Shown here: piece by piece, positions 16,974-32,063 of the stretch
How positions within the stretch are numbered: the first letter of the stretch is position 1
How the letters are laid out: every line of letters starts with the position of its first letter
Source: Magnetococcales bacterium
GTDB lineage: Bacteria; Pseudomonadota; Magnetococcia; Magnetococcales; JADFWT01
Assembly (NCBI GenBank): GCA_015233785.1
Contig: JADFWT010000022.1
Coordinates: forward strand, 1 to 32,190
Direction: 5' to 3'
Length of the DNA stretch: 32,190 nt
Notes under the pieces: model-generated
The model's database searches: none
The model's input: the letters and a program-made list of their open reading frames with translations, nothing else
What the model was told of the DNA's origin: nothing
Position numbers and translations under genes: made by a program

Positions 16974-18989
16974 ATGCCCATGAAGACAAACCACGCCGTC
17001 ATCGATCTCCCAATGGCCCTATCTCAGGCCATTCAGCACCACCAAAGCGGCCATCTGACCGAAGCCGAAGCGCTCTATCGACAGATTCTCCAGGCCCACC
17101 CCCAGCAGCCGGATGCCCTGCATCTACTGGGCTGCATCGCCCTGCAATCCGGTCAGGTGCAACAGGCTGAACAGTGGATTCGTCAGGCCGTGACCCTTCA
17201 GCCCCAGCGCGCCGATTTCCACAGCAATCTCGGCAACACCCTGGCCGCTTCCGGGCGCGGCTCATCGGCAGTTCGCAGCTTTGAACAGGCCCTGATGCTG
17301 GATCCCCATCTCGACGATGCCCGGCGTAATCTGGTCAACACCCTCAATGAACTGGGAAACCGCGCCCTGGAGAGTGGACGTGTTGATCGGGCTATCGCTC
17401 AATTTCAAAAGGCGCTTGCACGCGCCGATACCGACCAGAAGTCGGTGCTCTATAGCAATCTCTGCAACGCCTACTGGCACAAAGGAGAAGAAGCGGACCT
17501 GCTAAAGGGGCTCGAAGCGGGCCGCATGGGTCTGGAACTGAACCCAAACTCTGCGGCGATACAGACCAACCTCGGCAATCTGCTCGAAAGCCTGGGGCGG
17601 CTCTCCGAAGCCTCCGAGAAGTTCCAGACCGCCCTAAAGCTGAATCCACAGAGCCTGGATGCCCATAGCAATCTTGGCGTGACGCTTATGAGCCAGGGCA
17701 GAATGGCTGAAGCGCAGGAGATCTTTCACAAAGCCCTGACCATCCGTCACGACTTCCAGCAGGTCAAGAGCCTGCTGAGCAGCTACCTCTATCAGCCTGG
17801 AATCCCGGTTGATGAACTCTTTGCCGCCCATAAGCACCACATCAACGCCTGCCTGCCCGACACCATCACACCGCAAGTCACCGCACCCCCCACCATCATG
17901 CCCAAACGGCTGCGGGTGGGCTATCTCTCATCGGACCTGTTCGGCCATCCAGTGGGACGTAATATTGCGTCGCTGTTGATGCACCACCATCCGGAGCGCA
18001 TTGAGAGCTTCTGCTACGCCCTCTCCAGCCGTGAAGATGCCCTGACCCACCAACTACGCGGTAAGGTGGACCACTGGCGACAACTGCTGGATCTCCATGA
18101 TGAAGCCATCGCCCAGCGCATTCACGAAGACCATATTGATATTTTGGTGATTCTGGCCGGACTGTTCGATGAGAATCGCCCTCTGGTGGCCGCTTGGCGT
18201 CCGGCTCCGATTCAGGTCTCCTTTCATGCCGGGACCAGTAGCGGTCTTGACGCCATGGATTATTGGCTCACCGACACCATTCTTCACCCGGAAGAGAGCC
18301 CGGAATGCTTCACCGAACAACTCGTCCGCTTGCCCAACTTCTATCTCTACCTCCCTATAAAAAACGCTCCGCCACCCGGACCGCTCCCCGTCTTGCAAAA
18401 TGGCTATATCACCTTCGGCTGCTTCAATAATCCCGCAAAAATCAATCCGGAGCTGATCGATGACTGGGCACACATTCTAACCCAACTTCCCCAAGCACGG
18501 CTGCGGCTCAAATATCGCAACCTGTGGCAGGATCAGGGACTACGCAAGCGCATCCTGGAGGGATTCCAACACCACGGCATCGACCCCCAACGCATCGAGA
18601 TGATCCACGCCTTAGAAGATAGCAAAGCCCACCTCAAGCACTATCAAACCATCGATATCGCCCTGGACACCTTCCCCTTTACCGGGGCCGCCACCAATTT
18701 CCAGGCCCTCTGGATGGGCGTACCGGTGGTCTCTCGGCTGGGTGATCGGTTTATCCAGCGCATGGGGGGCTCTATTATCGCCCACGCCGGGTTGCCGGAA
18801 CTCAATGGTGCCTCTAGGGAAGCCTACGTGGAGATCGCCGTCACGCTGGCAAGCGACCGGAAACGGCTACAACATCTTCGGAATAACTTGAGAGAGCAGG
18901 TGGCCGGCTCGGTACTCTGCGACGGCGAACGCTATGCACGGGCGGTAGAGCACGCCTATCGGGAGATGTGGCGCATAAAGTTCGATTAA
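16974..18989 (+). CDS. TPR-repeat protein with O-GlcNAc transferase (SPINDLY/OGT)-like C-terminal domain (divergent)
   Basis: N-terminal TPRs (AEALYRQILQAHPQQPDALHLLGCIA). C-terminal LRVGYLSSDLFGHPVG, RPAPIQVSFHAGTSSGLDAMDYWLTD, LDTFPFTGAATNFQALWMGVPVVS. Confidence 0.9.
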   Translation: MPMKTNHAVIDLPMALSQAIQHHQSGHLTEAEALYRQILQAHPQQPDALHLLGCIALQSGQVQQAEQWIRQAVTLQPQRADFHSNLGNTLAASGRGSSAVRSFEQALMLDPHLDDARRNLVNTLNELGNRALESGRVDRAIAQFQKALARADTDQKSVLYSNLCNAYWHKGEEADLLKGLEAGRMGLELNPNSAAIQTNLGNLLESLGRLSEASEKFQTALKLNPQSLDAHSNLGVTLMSQGRMAEAQEIFHKALTIRHDFQQVKSLLSSYLYQPGIPVDELFAAHKHHINACLPDTITPQVTAPPTIMPKRLRVGYLSSDLFGHPVGRNIASLLMHHHPERIESFCYALSSREDALTHQLRGKVDHWRQLLDLHDEAIAQRIHEDHIDILVILAGLFDENRPLVAAWRPAPIQVSFHAGTSSGLDAMDYWLTDTILHPEESPECFTEQLVRLPNFYLYLPIKNAPPPGPLPVLQNGYITFGCFNNPAKINPELIDDWAHILTQLPQARLRLKYRNLWQDQGLRKRILEGFQHHGIDPQRIEMIHALEDSKAHLKHYQTIDIALDTFPFTGAATNFQALWMGVPVVSRLGDRFIQRMGGSIIAHAGLPELNGASREAYVEIAVTLASDRKRLQHLRNNLREQVAGSVLCDGERYARAVEHAYREMWRIKFD

Positions 18990-21190
18990 GAGACAGCCCC
19001 CTTGCCCGCCGCCACCCATGCATGCCAAGCGCCTCGCAACGCATCACTGACATCGCGGGCATACTGAGGCTGGTCGCAGATTGGCGAGTCGGCCATCCGC
19101 TCCCGCAAACCGCTTCGAAGCTGCACCAACCTGGCAGGATCCGAAGCCAGCGCCACCACACGCTCCACATACGCCGCCAAATCTCTGCACACCAGCTCAT
19201 CCAGTCCCAGAGTCTTCAGAAAACTGGTGGCGTGGCGGCTGGCAAAGGTCTCCCCATGCACCGTGACCATGGGCACCCCCATCCAGAGCGCCTCCAGCGT
19301 CGTCAAGCCCCCGGAGTAGGGCTGGGTATCCAAGGCCAGATCGATGCCGTTGTACTGGGCTAGTAGCGCCTCATGAGGCCGGGCACCCTCTAGAATGACC
19401 CGACTGGGCGCCACGCCGTGCCGTGCCATCACCTCATGAATGCGTGCCACGTTAAAGGGGCTGTCCATACCGTTGTACATTAGCCATAACGTGCAGTGAG
19501 GCAGACGCTGCAAGATCTTAGACCACGTCTCAAGAATCGGCCCGTTGATCTTGGAAGGATTGCCGAAATTACCCAGCACAAAGCCACGCTGCATCGCCTC
19601 CAGAGGGCGGGGAGACACCGGCGGAGCGTACGACGGCGGGGTGTAACTGAGCCAAGCGTGAGGCAGTGTGATAATTCGCTCGGTATAATAGCGCTGCTCC
19701 TCCTCGGCAATGGCGTGGCGGTCACCGATCATCCAATCCATGGTGGGCAGACCTGTGGTGCTGACATAGCCGCACCAGGCAATTTGAACCGGGGCGGGCT
19801 TCTGGGCAAACACGCCCATACGGTTGTGGGCCGTGTGACCTGCCAGATCCATGAGAATATCAATCCCATCAGCATGGATGCGCCGGGCCAGCTCGTCATG
19901 CGCCATCGGCAACGTAAAGTGCCACTGGTGGGCATACCCCTCCAGCTGCTTGGTCATGGTATCCGGCCTGCGATCCGAATAGACGATGATCTCCAACTCA
20001 TCCGGCGGATAGTGCGCCAAAAACCCGGCCATCAGATAGCCCACCGGGTGCTGGCCTAAATCCGGCGATGAGAGGCCGATACGCAACCTTCGATCCGGAT
20101 TTGGATCGTTGCGATGCGGAAACGGCATCGGTAGAACCAGCCCCGAACCCCACGATCTGTGCAGCGCGTAGAGACGCTCCAAACTCTGACCGGGCATGTA
20201 CTGCTGACACAGAAGAAGATTGCTGTTGGCACCAGGATTATCCGGTTGAACGGCCAATACCTCCCGGTAACAAGCAACCGCTTCATCAAAGCGACCCAAT
20301 GTATAATGAATATTTCCTAGATTACTGATTGCATTTAGGAAATTATGCTTCAATGCCATGGCCTTCCGATAGGCCTCACCGGCATCGTCCAGCGCCCCTT
20401 GCTCTTTCAGCGCGTTGCCCAGATGGTTGTACGCTTCAGCAAAATCGCCCCGCAGCGCAATGGCCTTGCGTGCACACGCTACCGATTCATCCAGACGCCC
20501 CATAAGCCGCAAGGCATTGCTGAGATTGCAGTAACCCTCGGCATAGTCCGGCTGAACGGCCGTGGCCCGCTGATGATGGGCAATGGCCTCCTCCAGTTGA
20601 CCATGGGTCTCCAGCAAGTTACCGAGATTGCTAAGTAACTGGGGCGAATCAGGCGCAAACGCCACCCCCTGCCGATAACAGGCCAGCGCCTCAAAAGGCT
20701 TCTGTCGTTGCATATAGAGATTGCCCAAGCTATTGAGAAACAAAGCACTCTCTGGCTGCAGCGCCAGCGCGGCCTTAAAACTGTCCGTAGCCGCTTGCCA
20801 CTGACCCCGAGCACTCTGCATATGACCCAGTTGATGATGCAGCTCGGCAGCGTCCGGCTGCACCCGGAGCAACGTCTGAAAACTGAGGATGGCATCATCC
20901 AACTGCCCAAGCGCCTGCTGCGCCTGTCCGAGATTATGCAGTGTCTGGGCATCATTCGGTTGAATGGCCAACGCCTGTTCATAGCACGACACCGCCTCGG
21001 CCAGCCCGCCCAACATATGGTATGCCCCGCCAAGATTACTCAGGGCCGGAACGTTTTGCGGCTGCACCGCCAACACCTGCTGATAACAGGCCATGGCTCG
21101 CTCCAGCTCGCCGGCCTGATGCCAGGCTAAACCTTGATCAAGCGCCTGCTGCGCCTCGGCAGCCTGGGAAGATGGGATGTGTTGATTCAT
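18986..21190 (-). CDS. TPR-repeat protein with O-GlcNAc transferase (SPINDLY/OGT)-like C-terminal domain
   Basis: About ten TPRs. C-terminal LRIGLSSPDLGQHPVGYLM, DILMDLAGHTAHNRMGVFAQKPAPVQIAWCGYVSTTGLPTMDWMIGD, LDTQPYSGGLTTLEALWMGVPMVT. Confidence 0.93.
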   Translation of the reverse strand: MNQHIPSSQAAEAQQALDQGLAWHQAGELERAMACYQQVLAVQPQNVPALSNLGGAYHMLGGLAEAVSCYEQALAIQPNDAQTLHNLGQAQQALGQLDDAILSFQTLLRVQPDAAELHHQLGHMQSARGQWQAATDSFKAALALQPESALFLNSLGNLYMQRQKPFEALACYRQGVAFAPDSPQLLSNLGNLLETHGQLEEAIAHHQRATAVQPDYAEGYCNLSNALRLMGRLDESVACARKAIALRGDFAEAYNHLGNALKEQGALDDAGEAYRKAMALKHNFLNAISNLGNIHYTLGRFDEAVACYREVLAVQPDNPGANSNLLLCQQYMPGQSLERLYALHRSWGSGLVLPMPFPHRNDPNPDRRLRIGLSSPDLGQHPVGYLMAGFLAHYPPDELEIIVYSDRRPDTMTKQLEGYAHQWHFTLPMAHDELARRIHADGIDILMDLAGHTAHNRMGVFAQKPAPVQIAWCGYVSTTGLPTMDWMIGDRHAIAEEEQRYYTERIITLPHAWLSYTPPSYAPPVSPRPLEAMQRGFVLGNFGNPSKINGPILETWSKILQRLPHCTLWLMYNGMDSPFNVARIHEVMARHGVAPSRVILEGARPHEALLAQYNGIDLALDTQPYSGGLTTLEALWMGVPMVTVHGETFASRHATSFLKTLGLDELVCRDLAAYVERVVALASDPARLVQLRSGLRERMADSPICDQPQYARDVSDALRGAWHAWVAAGKGAVS

Positions 21191-23580: not shown

Positions 23581-26500
23581 ATGTTTGATTTTCAAAATTT
23601 TACACTGCAAAGCATGACCCGTTGCGGACAGCAGATTGAACAGGGGTGCGCACCCGCCACCACTCTGGAACAGGCCAGCACCCTCATTTCCCGTTTCTTT
23701 TTTGACCACTTTATCGACCGAAAAAACGACGAAAAATCATGTGTTTTGGTGCAGTGTTTCTGTGTGCAGGCGTTCAAAACCCTCGATGGCGTGCTGAGAG
23801 AGGCCGCCATCCAGAGCATGTCTCCTATCAACATCGCTCCCAATGCCAAATTTCTCACCCTGATGGGCACCGCCGGTGTTGAGGCCGATTGGTGCTTTCC
23901 GGAACGCGCCGAAGAGCACCTGGCAACGCCCCTGGTCGATGAAAAACAGGTGATGGCCAACCCCATGTTGCGCCATCTGCTCTACCAGCTGGAGATCAAC
24001 CCCAAACACCTCATCAATCCCACCTCGAAACAGATGGAGACCCTTAGCGAAACAACCTTTAACCTGTTTCACATCGCCCAGGCCCAGGGAAGCGCCTACA
24101 TCCCCGATCAGAAGCGCATGATCCGACCCTACGGCGTGCGCTCCCTGCTGGGCATTACCAACGCACTGCCCACCGGCAACCTCTATCTCACCCTGATCTA
24201 CTCCAAAACCCCCATCCCCTACCGAACCGCCCATCTGTTTCGCAACATCGCTCTCAATATCAAAATGGCACTGGTCCCGGCCATGAGCGCTCGCTACCTG
24301 CTTGACGAAATGCGCGAAAGCTATCAGACCCGCTATAAAAATGATGCCCGCATGCAGTTAGAAACCCGTGGAGACACCTACCATAAGCTGTTGGATATAT
24401 TCCGAGAAACCGCTATCGAGCAGGCCAATCGCCACCACCATATGCTGGCTTACGCCCACGGCATCCTCACCTCTTTGGAAGATCTGGTACTGGTAACGCA
24501 TCGCGGCTTCGTAGAGTCGGTTAACCTCGACCACTGGCTCGGCTACGCCAAAGGCGACCTGATGGGACGCCCGCTGGAAGAGACGCTGCGCGAAGTGAGA
24601 GCCATTGTCTTCACCCCACGCCTGATCAACAAACTGCGACGGGAGGGAACACTCTCCGCTGTAGAGACCGCACTGCTGGACCGGAGCGGTGAGAGCATCC
24701 CCATGCTGATCTCCGCCTCCATGATGGAGAGCGGCGATATCGGCCATGGCGAACGACTGATCTACGTCTGCAAAAATATCTCCGAGTTCAAAAGCGCCCA
24801 GCAGGAGCTGCACTCCAAAGAGGCCGAACTGCTGGCCGCAGAAAGCACCAACCGCGCCAAAAGCGAGTTCCTGGCCAATATGAGCCACGAGATCCGTACC
24901 CCTATGAATGCCGTCATCGGTCTCACCGATCTGGCGCTGCAACACCACCCAACACCCGATATTCAGGACTATCTGACAAAAATCTCCAGCGCCTCCCGCT
25001 CCCTGCTGAGAATTATTAACGACATCCTCGACTTCTCCAAAATAGAAGCCGGAAAGCTCGATCTGGAGTCCCAACCCTTCCTACTGCGGGAGACCTTTGA
25101 AAACCTGGCCGATCTATTTCGTGCCCAGGCCGCTGAAAAGGGTGTGGAGCTGATTCTCTGCGTGGCCGAAGCGTGCCGGTTTCAACTGGTGGGCGACTCG
25201 CTGCGCCTGGAACAGATCCTCATGAACCTGATCGGCAATGCCCTAAAGTTCACCCAGAACGGCGAAATCGAAGTGCAGGTGGAGAGCACCCGGGAGACCG
25301 CTTCCTATCTGATGCTGCGTTTTTCGGTACGCGATACCGGTGTCGGCATGACCCCGGAACAGGTCAAGCGCATCTTTGGCGCCTTCTCTCAGGCCGATAG
25401 CTCTACCACTCGTAAATATGGTGGAGCCGGACTGGGTCTCACCATCAGCCGTCGCCTCACCGCTATGATGGGGGGTGATCTCTGGGTGGAATCCAGACGG
25501 CACCAGGGCAGTACCTTCTTCTTTACCGCCCGTTTCGGTCGCCGACTGAAGCCGGAGACAGAACAACTCATCCCCCCCGATAAGATACTCCATCTCCGGG
25601 TGCTGGTGGTGGATGACAACCCCGCCGCCAGGAATGCCATCTGCCGCATGCTGAACGCCTTTGGCCTCCAAACCACCAGCGCCGCCTCCGGTAAAGAGGC
25701 GATCCGCTGCTTGCAACAGCATGCCGAAAGCCCTATGCAACTGGCCCTGGTGGATAAAGAGATGCCGCACATGGATGGGCTGGAAACCTGCCGCCGCCTC
25801 AAAGCCGTTAATCCGGTGAGCGCACTTAAAACCGTCCTTATGCACCCCTTTGACCCCAACACCTCCCAAAACCAACACCGCTTTCACAGCGCCATCAACG
25901 CCAAGCTGATCAAACCTGTCAACTGCGCCCTGCTGTTTGAAACCATCATGGGACTGTTTGGCCAACCGCTTCCCCCATCACTCCGCACACAGGTCCCCAA
26001 CCTCAATACCGAGCGCGTGGTGGAGTGTATCGGAGGAGCCCGTGTGCTGCTGGTGGAAGATAATCCCATCAACCAACAGGTGGCCGGGGAGATCCTCGCA
26101 GGCGTCGGTCTCACTGTGGCGTTCGCCGATAATGGCCGCATTGCTATTGAAAAAGTGGAGGTTGGCGCCTTCGATGTGGTGCTGATGGATATCCAGATGC
26201 CGGAGATGGATGGCTACGCCGCCACCGCCGCCATTCGCGCCATGCCGCCACCGTGCAAAGGGTTGCCGATTCTGGCCATGACCGCCCACGCCATGAGCGG
26301 TGATCGGGAACGCTGCCTCTCGGCCGGTATGGATGACTACATCACCAAACCCATCGACCGCAGCAAGCTCTATGCAGCGCTCGTGCGCTGGATCAAACCC
26401 CGTGACCGCTCCGCACCCCCCTCCGTCACGCCGTCACAGACCGCCGCCACCCCTCAATCGGTACTGCCGGCCTCGATGCCGGGAATCGATCTTCCCAGTG

Positions 26501-27090
26501 CCCTGGATCGGCTCGGGGGCAATCGAACGCTGCTGGAGTCGCTACTAAGAACCTTTCATAGCGACCATGCCGACGCCCACCAGACCCTGACCCAAACCCT
26601 GGCCGGTCAACGGGCTGATGACCAAGCGCAAGCCCGGCAACAGGCCCATGCCATCAAGGGCATCGCCGGTAATCTCTCCGCCACCGGACTCTTTGAGGTT
26701 GCCAAAGCACTGGAGAGCGCCATCAAAAGACGGGAAGCCGATCTCTACACCCCCCTTATGAAACGCTTCGAGCAGGCCCTGAATGAGGTGATGGAGGCCA
26801 TTGCCGCTCTACCGCCACCCATTACGGCAGAGCAAGAGCCGCTGGATACGGATGCCCCCCTGGAGATGGAGAAAATCAGGCCGCTGACAGAGAGACTCGC
26901 CCGACAACTCCAGGAAGCCGCCATCGACGCCGAAGAGACCCTGAAGCAACTAACGCCGCTGATGCGTCCCGCTTCCCCCCCGGTGCATGACCTCATGCAA
27001 AAGGTTCAAAATGCCGTGGATCAATTTGATTTTGAAATAGCTTCGGAAGCGCTCACTAAAATGATGCAAGCACTCTCTTCAGACGGCTGA
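23581..27090 (+). CDS. Hybrid sensor histidine kinase (N-terminal sensor, PAS, HisKA, HATPase, two REC, HPt)
   Basis: H-box EFLANMSHEIRTPMNAVIGLTDLAL, HATPase (NLIGNALKFTQNGEIEV, DTGVGMTPEQ, GAGLGLTISRRL), REC1 (VLVVDDN..LALVDKEMPHMDG), REC2 (VLLVEDNPINQQV..VLMDIQMPEMDG), HPt (QQAHAIKGIAGNL). Confidence 0.96.
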   Translation: MFDFQNFTLQSMTRCGQQIEQGCAPATTLEQASTLISRFFFDHFIDRKNDEKSCVLVQCFCVQAFKTLDGVLREAAIQSMSPINIAPNAKFLTLMGTAGVEADWCFPERAEEHLATPLVDEKQVMANPMLRHLLYQLEINPKHLINPTSKQMETLSETTFNLFHIAQAQGSAYIPDQKRMIRPYGVRSLLGITNALPTGNLYLTLIYSKTPIPYRTAHLFRNIALNIKMALVPAMSARYLLDEMRESYQTRYKNDARMQLETRGDTYHKLLDIFRETAIEQANRHHHMLAYAHGILTSLEDLVLVTHRGFVESVNLDHWLGYAKGDLMGRPLEETLREVRAIVFTPRLINKLRREGTLSAVETALLDRSGESIPMLISASMMESGDIGHGERLIYVCKNISEFKSAQQELHSKEAELLAAESTNRAKSEFLANMSHEIRTPMNAVIGLTDLALQHHPTPDIQDYLTKISSASRSLLRIINDILDFSKIEAGKLDLESQPFLLRETFENLADLFRAQAAEKGVELILCVAEACRFQLVGDSLRLEQILMNLIGNALKFTQNGEIEVQVESTRETASYLMLRFSVRDTGVGMTPEQVKRIFGAFSQADSSTTRKYGGAGLGLTISRRLTAMMGGDLWVESRRHQGSTFFFTARFGRRLKPETEQLIPPDKILHLRVLVVDDNPAARNAICRMLNAFGLQTTSAASGKEAIRCLQQHAESPMQLALVDKEMPHMDGLETCRRLKAVNPVSALKTVLMHPFDPNTSQNQHRFHSAINAKLIKPVNCALLFETIMGLFGQPLPPSLRTQVPNLNTERVVECIGGARVLLVEDNPINQQVAGEILAGVGLTVAFADNGRIAIEKVEVGAFDVVLMDIQMPEMDGYAATAAIRAMPPPCKGLPILAMTAHAMSGDRERCLSAGMDDYITKPIDRSKLYAALVRWIKPRDRSAPPSVTPSQTAATPQSVLPASMPGIDLPSALDRLGGNRTLLESLLRTFHSDHADAHQTLTQTLAGQRADDQAQARQQAHAIKGIAGNLSATGLFEVAKALESAIKRREADLYTPLMKRFEQALNEVMEAIAALPPPITAEQEPLDTDAPLEMEKIRPLTERLARQLQEAAIDAEETLKQLTPLMRPASPPVHDLMQKVQNAVDQFDFEIASEALTKMMQALSSDG

Positions 27091-27226
27091 AGCAAACGGC
27101 ATTCAGACAACACTGGCGTCCCCTCGTCCGGCACGGCACAATCGTCATAAATCGAACCGCCCAACGTTCGGCATGCCCGGCGATGGGCGCTTGGCAACCC
27201 ATCATCAGCACCAAGGAACCGCACCC

Positions 27227-28165
27227 ATGCCCCAGGATGAGATTCAACCCGTTATCCTCATTGTGGATCGGAGTCAGGAGAACATCGATACCCTGACGGA
27301 CATGTTGCAAGAGAGCGGTATCGTGCGCCATGCCAGCCAGGCCGAGCAGGCACTGCAAGAGGCCTATGAAAGCGTGCCGGACCTGATTCTTCTGGCCATG
27401 GACCAGGCGTCCGAAGAGGGGTTTGAGATCTGCCGCCGACTCAAGGCAGAAGATATCACCCGTGACGCCCCTATCATCATGATGGGCAAGGGCATCCATG
27501 CCGTGGATGCCGAAATGGGGCTGGAAGCCGGGGCGGTGGATTTTATCTCCCAACCCATTATCGCACCCATCCTGCGGGCACGCGTGGCCCACCACATTGC
27601 CATGCACCATCAACGGGATGTCCTGGAGAGCCTGGCTATTATCGATCCCATCACCGACCTACCCAACCGGCGCCATTTTGAACAGACCCTGGAGATGGAG
27701 TGGCGACGAGCCGCACGGGCCAAAGATCACCTGTCACTGCTGCTCATCGATGTAGACCCCTTCAACGATATCGCCAACCGGTTTGGTTACGACGCCGCCG
27801 AAGAGCTGCTGCAACAAGTGGCCAGAGCCATGGCCGATACGCTGCTGCGCGCCACCGATCTGATCTCCTATCTCCAGGATGCCACCTTTGTGGCGCTACT
27901 GCCGGAAGTAGACCCGGATGGCGCTAACGACACCGCCGAACGGCTCCGTGCCCAGGCCGCCGCCATCTCCAACGACCCGGAGAACCATCCCATCTCCATC
28001 AGCATTGGCTGCGCCACCACCACTCCCCAGCCTGGCAGCAGCCCCGAAGAGCTGATGGATGCCGCCGACAATATGCTCAATACCGCCATCGACGAAGGAC
28101 GGGACCGGGTGAAATCCATCCTCTGCGGCAATACCGTGGTCTACGCCGCCGCTCAACCCGCCTAA
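27227..28165 (+). CDS. REC-GGDEF-like protein with degenerate receiver and GGDEF sites
   Basis: Receiver-like N-terminus (VILIVDRSQENIDTLTDML...DLILLAMDQASEEGFEICRRLK). GGDEF-like C-terminus (DPITDLPNRRHFEQTLEMEW, LLLIDVDPFNDIANRFGYDAAEELLQQVA, ISIGCAT). Start set at the Met in PMPQDE. Confidence 0.88.
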   Translation: MPQDEIQPVILIVDRSQENIDTLTDMLQESGIVRHASQAEQALQEAYESVPDLILLAMDQASEEGFEICRRLKAEDITRDAPIIMMGKGIHAVDAEMGLEAGAVDFISQPIIAPILRARVAHHIAMHHQRDVLESLAIIDPITDLPNRRHFEQTLEMEWRRAARAKDHLSLLLIDVDPFNDIANRFGYDAAEELLQQVARAMADTLLRATDLISYLQDATFVALLPEVDPDGANDTAERLRAQAAAISNDPENHPISISIGCATTTPQPGSSPEELMDAADNMLNTAIDEGRDRVKSILCGNTVVYAAAQPA

Positions 28166-28375
28166 AGGGCACGCCTCTTGGAAGCACATCGCCCCTCCAC
28201 TCGGCTCGACTCCACCTTGTGAACCGCAATCAACATATTGATCGTACAAATCAATATTCTATAGAAGCGCTTGGCGCATCCCACCTTGAATGTTAGCATG
28301 TGAGTGGGATGCATTATTATATTTTTTACGAGGGGATGCGGTGGGCCGCACGTCGTTCAAAGAGGGAGCTGCGCC

Positions 28376-29257
28376 ATGAATAATCCATCTGGAAGCCCAT
28401 TTCCAGCCAATGCCGAGTACCTGGTCTTCTCCATTGAAGGTCGCCAATATGCCGTGCCCGGCTCCAATGTGGTCTCGGTGATCAATATGCCGGTAGAGAC
28501 CGTGATTCCACATGTGCCGCCCGCCATGCGCGGCATCATCTCCTTTCAGGAGAACAACGTCACGCTGTTTGATCTGCGAACACTGTTTGGCATCGAAGGT
28601 CGTAAAAAAGAGATCGATGCGCTCATCTCCAACATGGCAGCACGAAAACAAGACCATATCAACTGGTTGAACACGCTGCTCAAAGAGGTGGACAACCATC
28701 AAACCATCACCGTGCAAACCAATCCACACCTTTGCGCGTTCGGGAAGTGGTACGATAAGTTCACAACCGATAACCTACAGCTACGGTCCTATATGGAGCG
28801 CTTTGATACGCCCCATAAGGAGATTCACGCCCTGGCAATCACCGCTGCCGAATTGGCAGGTAATGACGATACTGCCGGCGCGCACACTCTGATTAAACAG
28901 GCCGAATCTGGGGTGCTGGCCAAACTTCTGAACCTGTTCGACGGCATCGGCGACTTGGTGCGACGCTATATGATGGAGTACGCCATTGTCTGCGAGACGG
29001 ACAATGTGCAGTTCGCCATCGCTGTGGATGACATCAACTTTTTCAGCCCGCTGGAAAAAATCGAGTATCCAGCACCCAAAGGCATCGCGCGGGATGAGAA
29101 CGATATTGTTCAGGCGGTGGGGCGCTATCGGGCCAAATCAGAGGATGAATACAGCAATATCCTACTGCTGGAGCTCGGACAGATTACCCAGCAGTTTGAT
29201 ATCGACGGTCTGGCCGACCTGGCCCCCTCACAACCGCAACCGGTGGCCACAGCCTGA
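28376..29257 (+). CDS. CheW-like protein with an internal CZB (chemoreceptor zinc-binding) domain
   Basis: CheW N-half (EYLVFSIEGRQYAVPGSNVVSVINM..RGIISFQENNVTLFDLRTLFGI), CZB (DHINWL..HLCAFGKWYDKF..PHKEIHALA), CheW C-half (FAIAVDDINFFSPLEKIEYPAP..EYSNILLLELGQI). Confidence 0.88.
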   Translation: MNNPSGSPFPANAEYLVFSIEGRQYAVPGSNVVSVINMPVETVIPHVPPAMRGIISFQENNVTLFDLRTLFGIEGRKKEIDALISNMAARKQDHINWLNTLLKEVDNHQTITVQTNPHLCAFGKWYDKFTTDNLQLRSYMERFDTPHKEIHALAITAAELAGNDDTAGAHTLIKQAESGVLAKLLNLFDGIGDLVRRYMMEYAIVCETDNVQFAIAVDDINFFSPLEKIEYPAPKGIARDENDIVQAVGRYRAKSEDEYSNILLLELGQITQQFDIDGLADLAPSQPQPVATA

Positions 29258-30690: not shown

Positions 30691-31272
30691 ATGTACCGAC
30701 CTCACAAAGAGACCCAACAGGAGCGCATCGACCGCCTTACGCAAGAGGCGGAAAAGCGCGTTGATCAGGAAGGCACAGCGGAACCCTATACTCTGGAGCG
30801 CTTCCGAAAGACCATGTTCAGCAAGCTGCGTAAGGTGGGCGTGCGGGAGTTTGACGACCATCATGTGCAACTGGTGAACTACATTGTCGATGTCTACGAA
30901 GTGGTACAGGTGCTGCAACTGCGCGCCCCCAATCAGGAGACCCTGGACAAGCTGACCTTGGTGCTGGACAAGCTCCAAGAGTACACCGTCTTTCACTTCG
31001 GGGAGGAGGAGATCTTTTTCGAGAAAATTGAATACCCCCATCGGCAGACACATATCGCCCAACACAAAGCGTTTGTGGCGCGCTTTCTTGAGATCCGTCG
31101 AGAGATCGCCGCCGGACGCCCCCAGTTTGTCATGGACCTTTTTTTCGCCGCCTTCGGTTGGCTCTTTGACCACATCAACCAACACGACATGAAGTATAGC
31201 CGCTATGTTCAGGATAATCCTAAACTTCTAACGTCCTTGCGTCGCAGCCCACCCAAACCACGCCCATCCTGA
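30691..31272 (+). CDS. Bacteriohemerythrin
   Basis: Hemerythrin ligand pattern: FDDHHVQLV, HFGEEEIFFEKIEYPHRQTHIAQHKAFV, LFDHINQHDMKYSRY. Confidence 0.93.
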   Translation: MYRPHKETQQERIDRLTQEAEKRVDQEGTAEPYTLERFRKTMFSKLRKVGVREFDDHHVQLVNYIVDVYEVVQVLQLRAPNQETLDKLTLVLDKLQEYTVFHFGEEEIFFEKIEYPHRQTHIAQHKAFVARFLEIRREIAAGRPQFVMDLFFAAFGWLFDHINQHDMKYSRYVQDNPKLLTSLRRSPPKPRPS

Positions 31273-31367
31273 CCCACCCCACAGGTCGCTGAGAGCGGTT
31301 CTAATCGTCCCCGTGGGCTGCTATAGTGAACGCAGTTCAAAACCATAGCCTGGGGCCACCCCAAAAG

Positions 31368-32063
31368 ATGCGAAAACGCACCCCCCACACCACCGTGATC
31401 CGCTGGCAGCCACGTACCGCCTCTACCCAGCAATCTCTACAGGCGTTTCAAGAACTCAGGCAGGCCAACCGACGCGCCAAACGCCAGCTATCGCCCCTTA
31501 CACCGCTTCCCGAACGGCTGGATCCGCAACTGGACGCCGCCCTGACGCCCCCGGCCCACCCAATACCCGCTCCAGCCGAATCCACCAACGCCCATCGAGC
31601 ACCCACAAACCAAACCGCCTCCCAACGGCCCTATTCCCTGGCGCGTTATCGCCAGATCATGCGGGCCAAACTGCGTAAGGTGGGCCTGGCGGAATTTGAC
31701 CAGCACCACGCCCAGTTGATGGATGATGTGGTAGATCTCTATGCCGCCACCCAGTTGCGTACACCCACACCCGAAGCGCTGACTCAACTGAAACAGGCCC
31801 TGGATAAACTGCACCAAAACATTCAACACCATTTTCACGAAGAAGAGCGCTTTATGGAGACCATCGGCTATCCGGCGCTACCCTCCCATCGGGCACTGCA
31901 CCGCTCGTTTATGGAACGATTTACCGAGCTGCGCCGAGAGATCGACAGCGGTCGCTACACCTCGGTAACGCCGCTATTTCTGACGGCCTTCGGCTGGCTG
32001 TTCGAACATATCAATACCCATGATATGCAGTATGCACGCTACTATCTGGAGATGAGAGATTGA
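31368..32063 (+). CDS. Bacteriohemerythrin (paralog of upstream gene, Pro-rich N-terminal extension)
   Basis: FDQHHAQLM, HFHEEERFMETIGYPALPSHRALHRSFM, LFEHINTHDMQYARY. The alternative GTG start at 31326 is possible. Confidence 0.92.
   Translation: MRKRTPHTTVIRWQPRTASTQQSLQAFQELRQANRRAKRQLSPLTPLPERLDPQLDAALTPPAHPIPAPAESTNAHRAPTNQTASQRPYSLARYRQIMRAKLRKVGLAEFDQHHAQLMDDVVDLYAATQLRTPTPEALTQLKQALDKLHQNIQHHFHEEERFMETIGYPALPSHRALHRSFMERFTELRREIDSGRYTSVTPLFLTAFGWLFEHINTHDMQYARYYLEMRD

Follow-up and report, generated by a model that had tools for sequence, protein, structure and literature searches.

Is the gene at 28376-29257 (+) of this Magnetococcales contig a chemosensory adaptor that itself carries a zinc sensor, and how might such a protein act? 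Within the window, by which we mean the whole stretch of 32,190 nucleotides analysed here, the first-pass annotation had read this frame as a CheW fold interrupted by a complete CZB domain, and its coordinates and all the peptides that it quoted agree with the translation of the ORF. The 293 encoded residues contain one CheW domain in two halves, N-terminal and C-terminal, with a complete CZB domain between them. The segment AGAGGGAG is found at 28361-28368, upstream of the ATG at 28376, and the features are laid out as follows.

28376..29257, +, CheW-CZB gene, 293 aa plus stop; homologues begin near the equivalent position
28415..28600, +, CheW N-terminal half, residues 14-75 (Pfam CheW, hhalign, strands of the model)
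28601..28969, +, inserted CZB, all helical, residues 76-198 (Pfam CZB, AlphaFold helices, Foldseek 3t9o)
28655..28657, +, His94, zinc ligand 1 by alignment, invariant in 28 sequences
28733..28735, +, Cys120, zinc ligand by alignment, within CAFGKW, invariant in 28 sequences
28814..28816, +, His147, zinc ligand by alignment, invariant in 28 sequences
28826..28828, +, His151, zinc ligand by alignment, invariant in 28 sequences
28970..29200, +, CheW C-terminal half, residues 199-275 (hhalign probability 95.8%; strands 202-265)
29201..29254, +, tail, residues 276-293, unconserved and of low confidence (identity, pLDDT)

Both Pfam models scored above their cut-offs, CheW (PF01584) at residues 14-78 (model 1-65 of 138, E 5e-14, 52.5 bits versus a cut-off of 23.5) and CZB (PF13682) at residues 94-157 (model 1-63 of 64, E 1.3e-10, 41.9 bits versus 29.4). 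The C-terminal half of CheW gave no Pfam match when the C flank was scanned alone, and joining the flanks extended the CheW match to model positions 1-133 with a gain of less than 1 bit (53.3 versus 52.5), hence Pfam by itself is weak for this half. Profiles of the family were more informative: the N flank aligned with residues 17-77 of E. coli CheW (hhalign, probability 99.0%) and the C flank with residues 85-154 (95.8%), and both flanks taken in order reached a joint profile-profile probability of 99.5%. These alignments place the CZB in a loop at about residues 77-85 of E. coli CheW. For the distant homologue L017, a plain Pfam scan detects CheW as two stretches totalling 102.6 bits.

The AlphaFold model of the window protein, for which the alignment input was 28 sequences, reached a pLDDT of 91.1 and a pTM of 0.82, with strands at 14-66, helices at 76-198 and strands again at 202-265. 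The tail has a mean identity of 5% within the order, and its final two 10-residue blocks have a pLDDT of 62. When the model was compared with the PDB by Foldseek, CheW structures were the top matches. The 140-residue CheW chain 2ch4_Y was aligned across 264 columns (target TM 0.79), and such stretching indicates that the two flanks are one CheW; the insert matched the CZB of DgcZ (3t9o_B, target TM 0.62), ranked after the CheW structures. The gammaproteobacterial relative L020, which is 24% identical, was modelled as well and showed the same layout with a pLDDT of 84.3 (2ch4_Y TM 0.81, 3t9o TM 0.72-0.73). HMMs, profiles and structure prediction thus substantiate the annotated interruption: the models show no pair of independent domains, one CheW chain covers both flanks so that the fold is complete, and the helical CZB with all four ligands stands as an insert. 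We conclude, from sequence and predicted structure, that the window protein is a single CheW fold carrying a CZB in the loop between its sequence halves.

The predicted His3Cys site of the insert (H94, C120, H147 and H151) is invariant in all 28 aligned sequences, and the residue after the zinc Cys is an Ala (CAFGKW) which is nearly invariant across the family. The CZB is also the most conserved segment, with a mean identity within the order of 55% compared with 45% for one CheW half and 41% for the other, as expected if it were the working sensor. In a tree of CZB domains the CheW-CZBs group with N-terminal receptor CZBs, apart from the C-terminal chemoreceptor CZBs; with few columns and long branches, the tree is compatible with either a single or a multiple origin of CheW-CZB. 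The order is rich in CZB domains, with 2-17 per genome. Frames with two successive N-terminal CZB domains were seen at L003/L004 (G000:C122:1488-1973) and L115; the L003 frame also contains an MCP signalling domain, and in the CZB tree the domains of these frames cluster with those of CheW-CZB proteins. Two short frames of 127 and 146 aa, L006 (G000:C22:41011-41202) and L007 (G000:C177:18243-18434), apparently consist of CZB alone.

Proteins of the CheW-CZB kind have been catalogued since 2021, which the first-pass annotation did not mention, and as far as we found their function is unexplored in the literature. According to the accessible text of a survey of 10,140 CZB sequences from that year, the CheW-CZB subgroup makes up 1.4% of them, is commonest in Clostridia and, behind the zinc Cys, has either Ala or a variable residue (PMC8262984); in 2023 CheW-CZB was named among the known CheW architectures (PMC10653840). 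The nesting of CZB within CheW is not stated in the accessible text of the survey, where the words insert, embedded and flank are absent, and was likewise not found in that of PMC10653840. We found no published binding, zinc or motility experiment on CheW-CZB. As far as the accessible text of PMC8262984 describes them, the window protein resembles the members of the subgroup in being a soluble protein with both CheW and CZB and in the Ala behind the zinc Cys (C-A-F-G), and it resembles cluster III of the survey in that the CZB of its family stands apart from C-terminal chemoreceptor CZBs; the surveyed subgroup has its highest abundance in Clostridia, whereas the branch of the window is an order in Pseudomonadota.

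Among better known systems, E. coli DgcZ (CZB-GGDEF) shares the CZB fold, the His3Cys ligands and the structural match 3t9o, but its output is a diguanylate cyclase and its CZB is N-terminal rather than nested. The soluble CZB chemoreceptors TlpD of H. pylori and McpA of Salmonella also have a CZB in a chemotaxis protein; in TlpD it is found at the C-terminus of the receptor coiled coil, whereas the window CZB is in an adaptor, and the architecture of McpA is described as similar to that of TlpD (PMC13370339). The CheWS of Treponema denticola (CheW-CheRlike) is likewise a CheW adaptor fused with a domain supplying sensing input, but there a SAM-binding CheR-like domain is joined end-to-end (PMC10653840). 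CZB domains elsewhere confer zinc and HOCl/redox control on chemoreceptors and a diguanylate cyclase (PMC8262984, PMC13370339), and a 2026 preprint makes the case that the CZB reports exogenous redox and oxygen via the soluble zinc pool, not by direct Cys oxidation alone (PMC13370339). The zinc-pool mode would, we infer, fit a bacterium with no exposure to host HOCl.

The likeliest reading, which the first-pass annotation had already put forward, to which we would give an even chance and which is not secure, is that the window protein is a cytosolic chemosensory scaffold that responds to zinc or redox at the adaptor. The zinc occupancy of the CZB would depend on the available zinc pool or on whether Cys120 is oxidised, and a change in occupancy would shift the helices entering and leaving the insert. 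Because both ends of the insert are anchored in the CheW fold, such a shift would alter the docking of the CheW part with CheA P5, other CheW-like domains or receptors, and kinase output could then be tuned directly at the adaptor. This explanation is favoured by the split CheW with its complete CZB, the same layout in L020 and L017, the four invariant ligands, the conservation of the CZB, the full chemosensory repertoire, the nearby flagellar genes and the roles of CZB elsewhere. It is weakened by the loss of Glu38 in 24 of 24 order members, by Gln at the Arg62 position in nine of them and by the orphan position of the gene away from che synteny. Input to chemotaxis arrays is normally attributed to receptors. 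We speculate, tentatively and with doubts outweighing confidence, that the order has a CheW-derived protein without Glu38 that is itself a zinc- or redox-sensing array component, the signal entering at the scaffold ring and not at the receptor. A scaffold with its own zinc or redox sensor would deliver a cell-wide signal to CheA directly, under many receptors at the same time. The family further offers a clear nested topology, invariant ligands for mutation and Glu38 as a mark against ordinary CheW.

In E. coli CheW, Glu38 lies in the receptor site and the Glu38-Arg62 pair aligns receptor and kinase sites (PMC3828127). Mapped onto that protein, the Glu38 position is Ser, Ala or Thr in every order member (Ser in the window protein) and the Arg62 position is Arg in 15 of the 24 and Gln in the remainder, the window protein included, while Gly57 and Asp70 are retained. 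Both Glu38 and Arg62 are kept in the plain CheWs and CheVs of the genome and in the distant L017; the exception in the genome is a CheW-like domain, the second domain of L009. The window protein hence lacks the Glu38-Arg62 pair of a classical CheW (class F7 type). This point, missed in the first-pass annotation, weakens the view of it as a normal receptor-CheA adaptor. It should be noted that the CheWs of T. maritima also have no Glu there and seem to rely on a different Glu-Arg pair (PMC3828127), so the absence of Glu38 alone is no proof of lost coupling. The changes at Glu38 and Arg62 argue for an altered coupling and do not imply its absence. The loss of Glu38 in order-wide CheW-CZBs is a point not found in the accessible text of PMC8262984 or PMC10653840.

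The main rival to the zinc- or redox-responsive scaffold, possible though we rather doubt it, is that the protein modulates arrays and is not a coupler. Its CheW part would fill CheW or CheA-P5 positions in the ring without proper receptor coupling, and the zinc state might dilute, cap or dimerise array units. CZB domains dimerise. The disappearance of Glu38 from all order members, with the Glu38-Arg62 pair broken, is consistent with such a role, as are the separate intact CheWs and CheVs in the genome, which can do the coupling, and the R62A variant of E. coli CheW, which still binds its partners and impairs chemotaxis (PMC3828127); the alternative pair proposed for T. maritima speaks against it.

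The chemosensory repertoire of the genome includes about 30 MCP proteins, CheA, plain CheWs and CheVs. At L010 and L012 (G000:C288, C109) two alike chemosensory modules were seen, each with a CheW-/receiver-like frame and then a CheW; the CheW of the second frame carries additional sequence in another loop. The CheW-CZB gene itself is an orphan, as no conserved synteny with a che operon was found among the homologue neighbourhoods. A conserved operon was also rejected, as the neighbours differ between genomes and are not orthologous to one another. In seven of 20 homologue neighbourhoods flagellar genes are found no more than about 6 kb away: FlhA in G024 and G028; FlgD, FlgE and FliM in G006; flagellin in G016, G039 and G036; and FlgE/F/G-type rod proteins in G021. 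As some of these genomes share a genus, the flagellar neighbours give mild support to a motility role for CheW-CZB.

Genes for a hybrid histidine kinase (23581-27090) and, directly before CheW-CZB, for a response regulator-GGDEF protein (27173-28165) lie upstream in the window, and the downstream side has genes for one YibE/F-like and two hemerythrin-like proteins. The GGDEF neighbour illustrates a further alternative, which we consider unlikely, namely that the protein is a CZB sensor whose degenerate CheW binds a partner outside chemotaxis arrays, such as a histidine kinase or a c-di-GMP enzyme. The locus of the closest homologue likewise has RR-GGDEF and RR-GGDEF-EAL genes upstream, and GGDEF, HD-domain, PilZ or hybrid-kinase genes are found near several other homologues. 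However, GGDEF domains are abundant in these genomes (39 in G000, 21-50 in others), GGDEF in about five of 21 neighbourhoods is no clear excess over this high background, and a link to c-di-GMP genes was rejected for that reason; the lack of orthology between neighbours also counts against such a partner.

When 100 related genomes were searched, 24 of the 48 from the same order carried a full-length homologue, along with one fragment. No homologue was seen at E 1e-15 in some 350 further genomes from the phylum, where scoring covered no more than the six top candidates of each genome. A scan of a genome collection added four distant relatives, from MAGs of Desulfobacteraceae and Gammaproteobacteria. 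A protein search of a plasmid collection revealed no CheW-CZB, its single match being a clostridial chemoreceptor whose CZB is C-terminal. Judged from these sequences, CheW-CZB is a real architecture that has long been conserved as a unit. A chance fusion, an assembly error or a decaying gene might be suspected in a draft genome of 364 contigs that is 72% complete, but is refuted with near certainty by an architecture shared by 24 order genomes and four distant ones, by the invariant ligands and by the single fold predicted at high confidence by AlphaFold.

Two tandem CheW-CZB copies, 83% identical, are found in G036 (L068, G036:C429:3755-5455), and these might form heterodimers. Past the YibE/F gene of the window, the hemerythrin-like pair (30691-31272 and 31326-32063, both +; Pfam 1.1e-7 and 1.8e-11) are candidates for oxygen-related sensing or storage. 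Elsewhere in the window, two TPR proteins that have Glyco_transf_41 (O-GlcNAc-transferase-like) domains are encoded convergently at 16974-18989 (+) and 18986-21190 (-).
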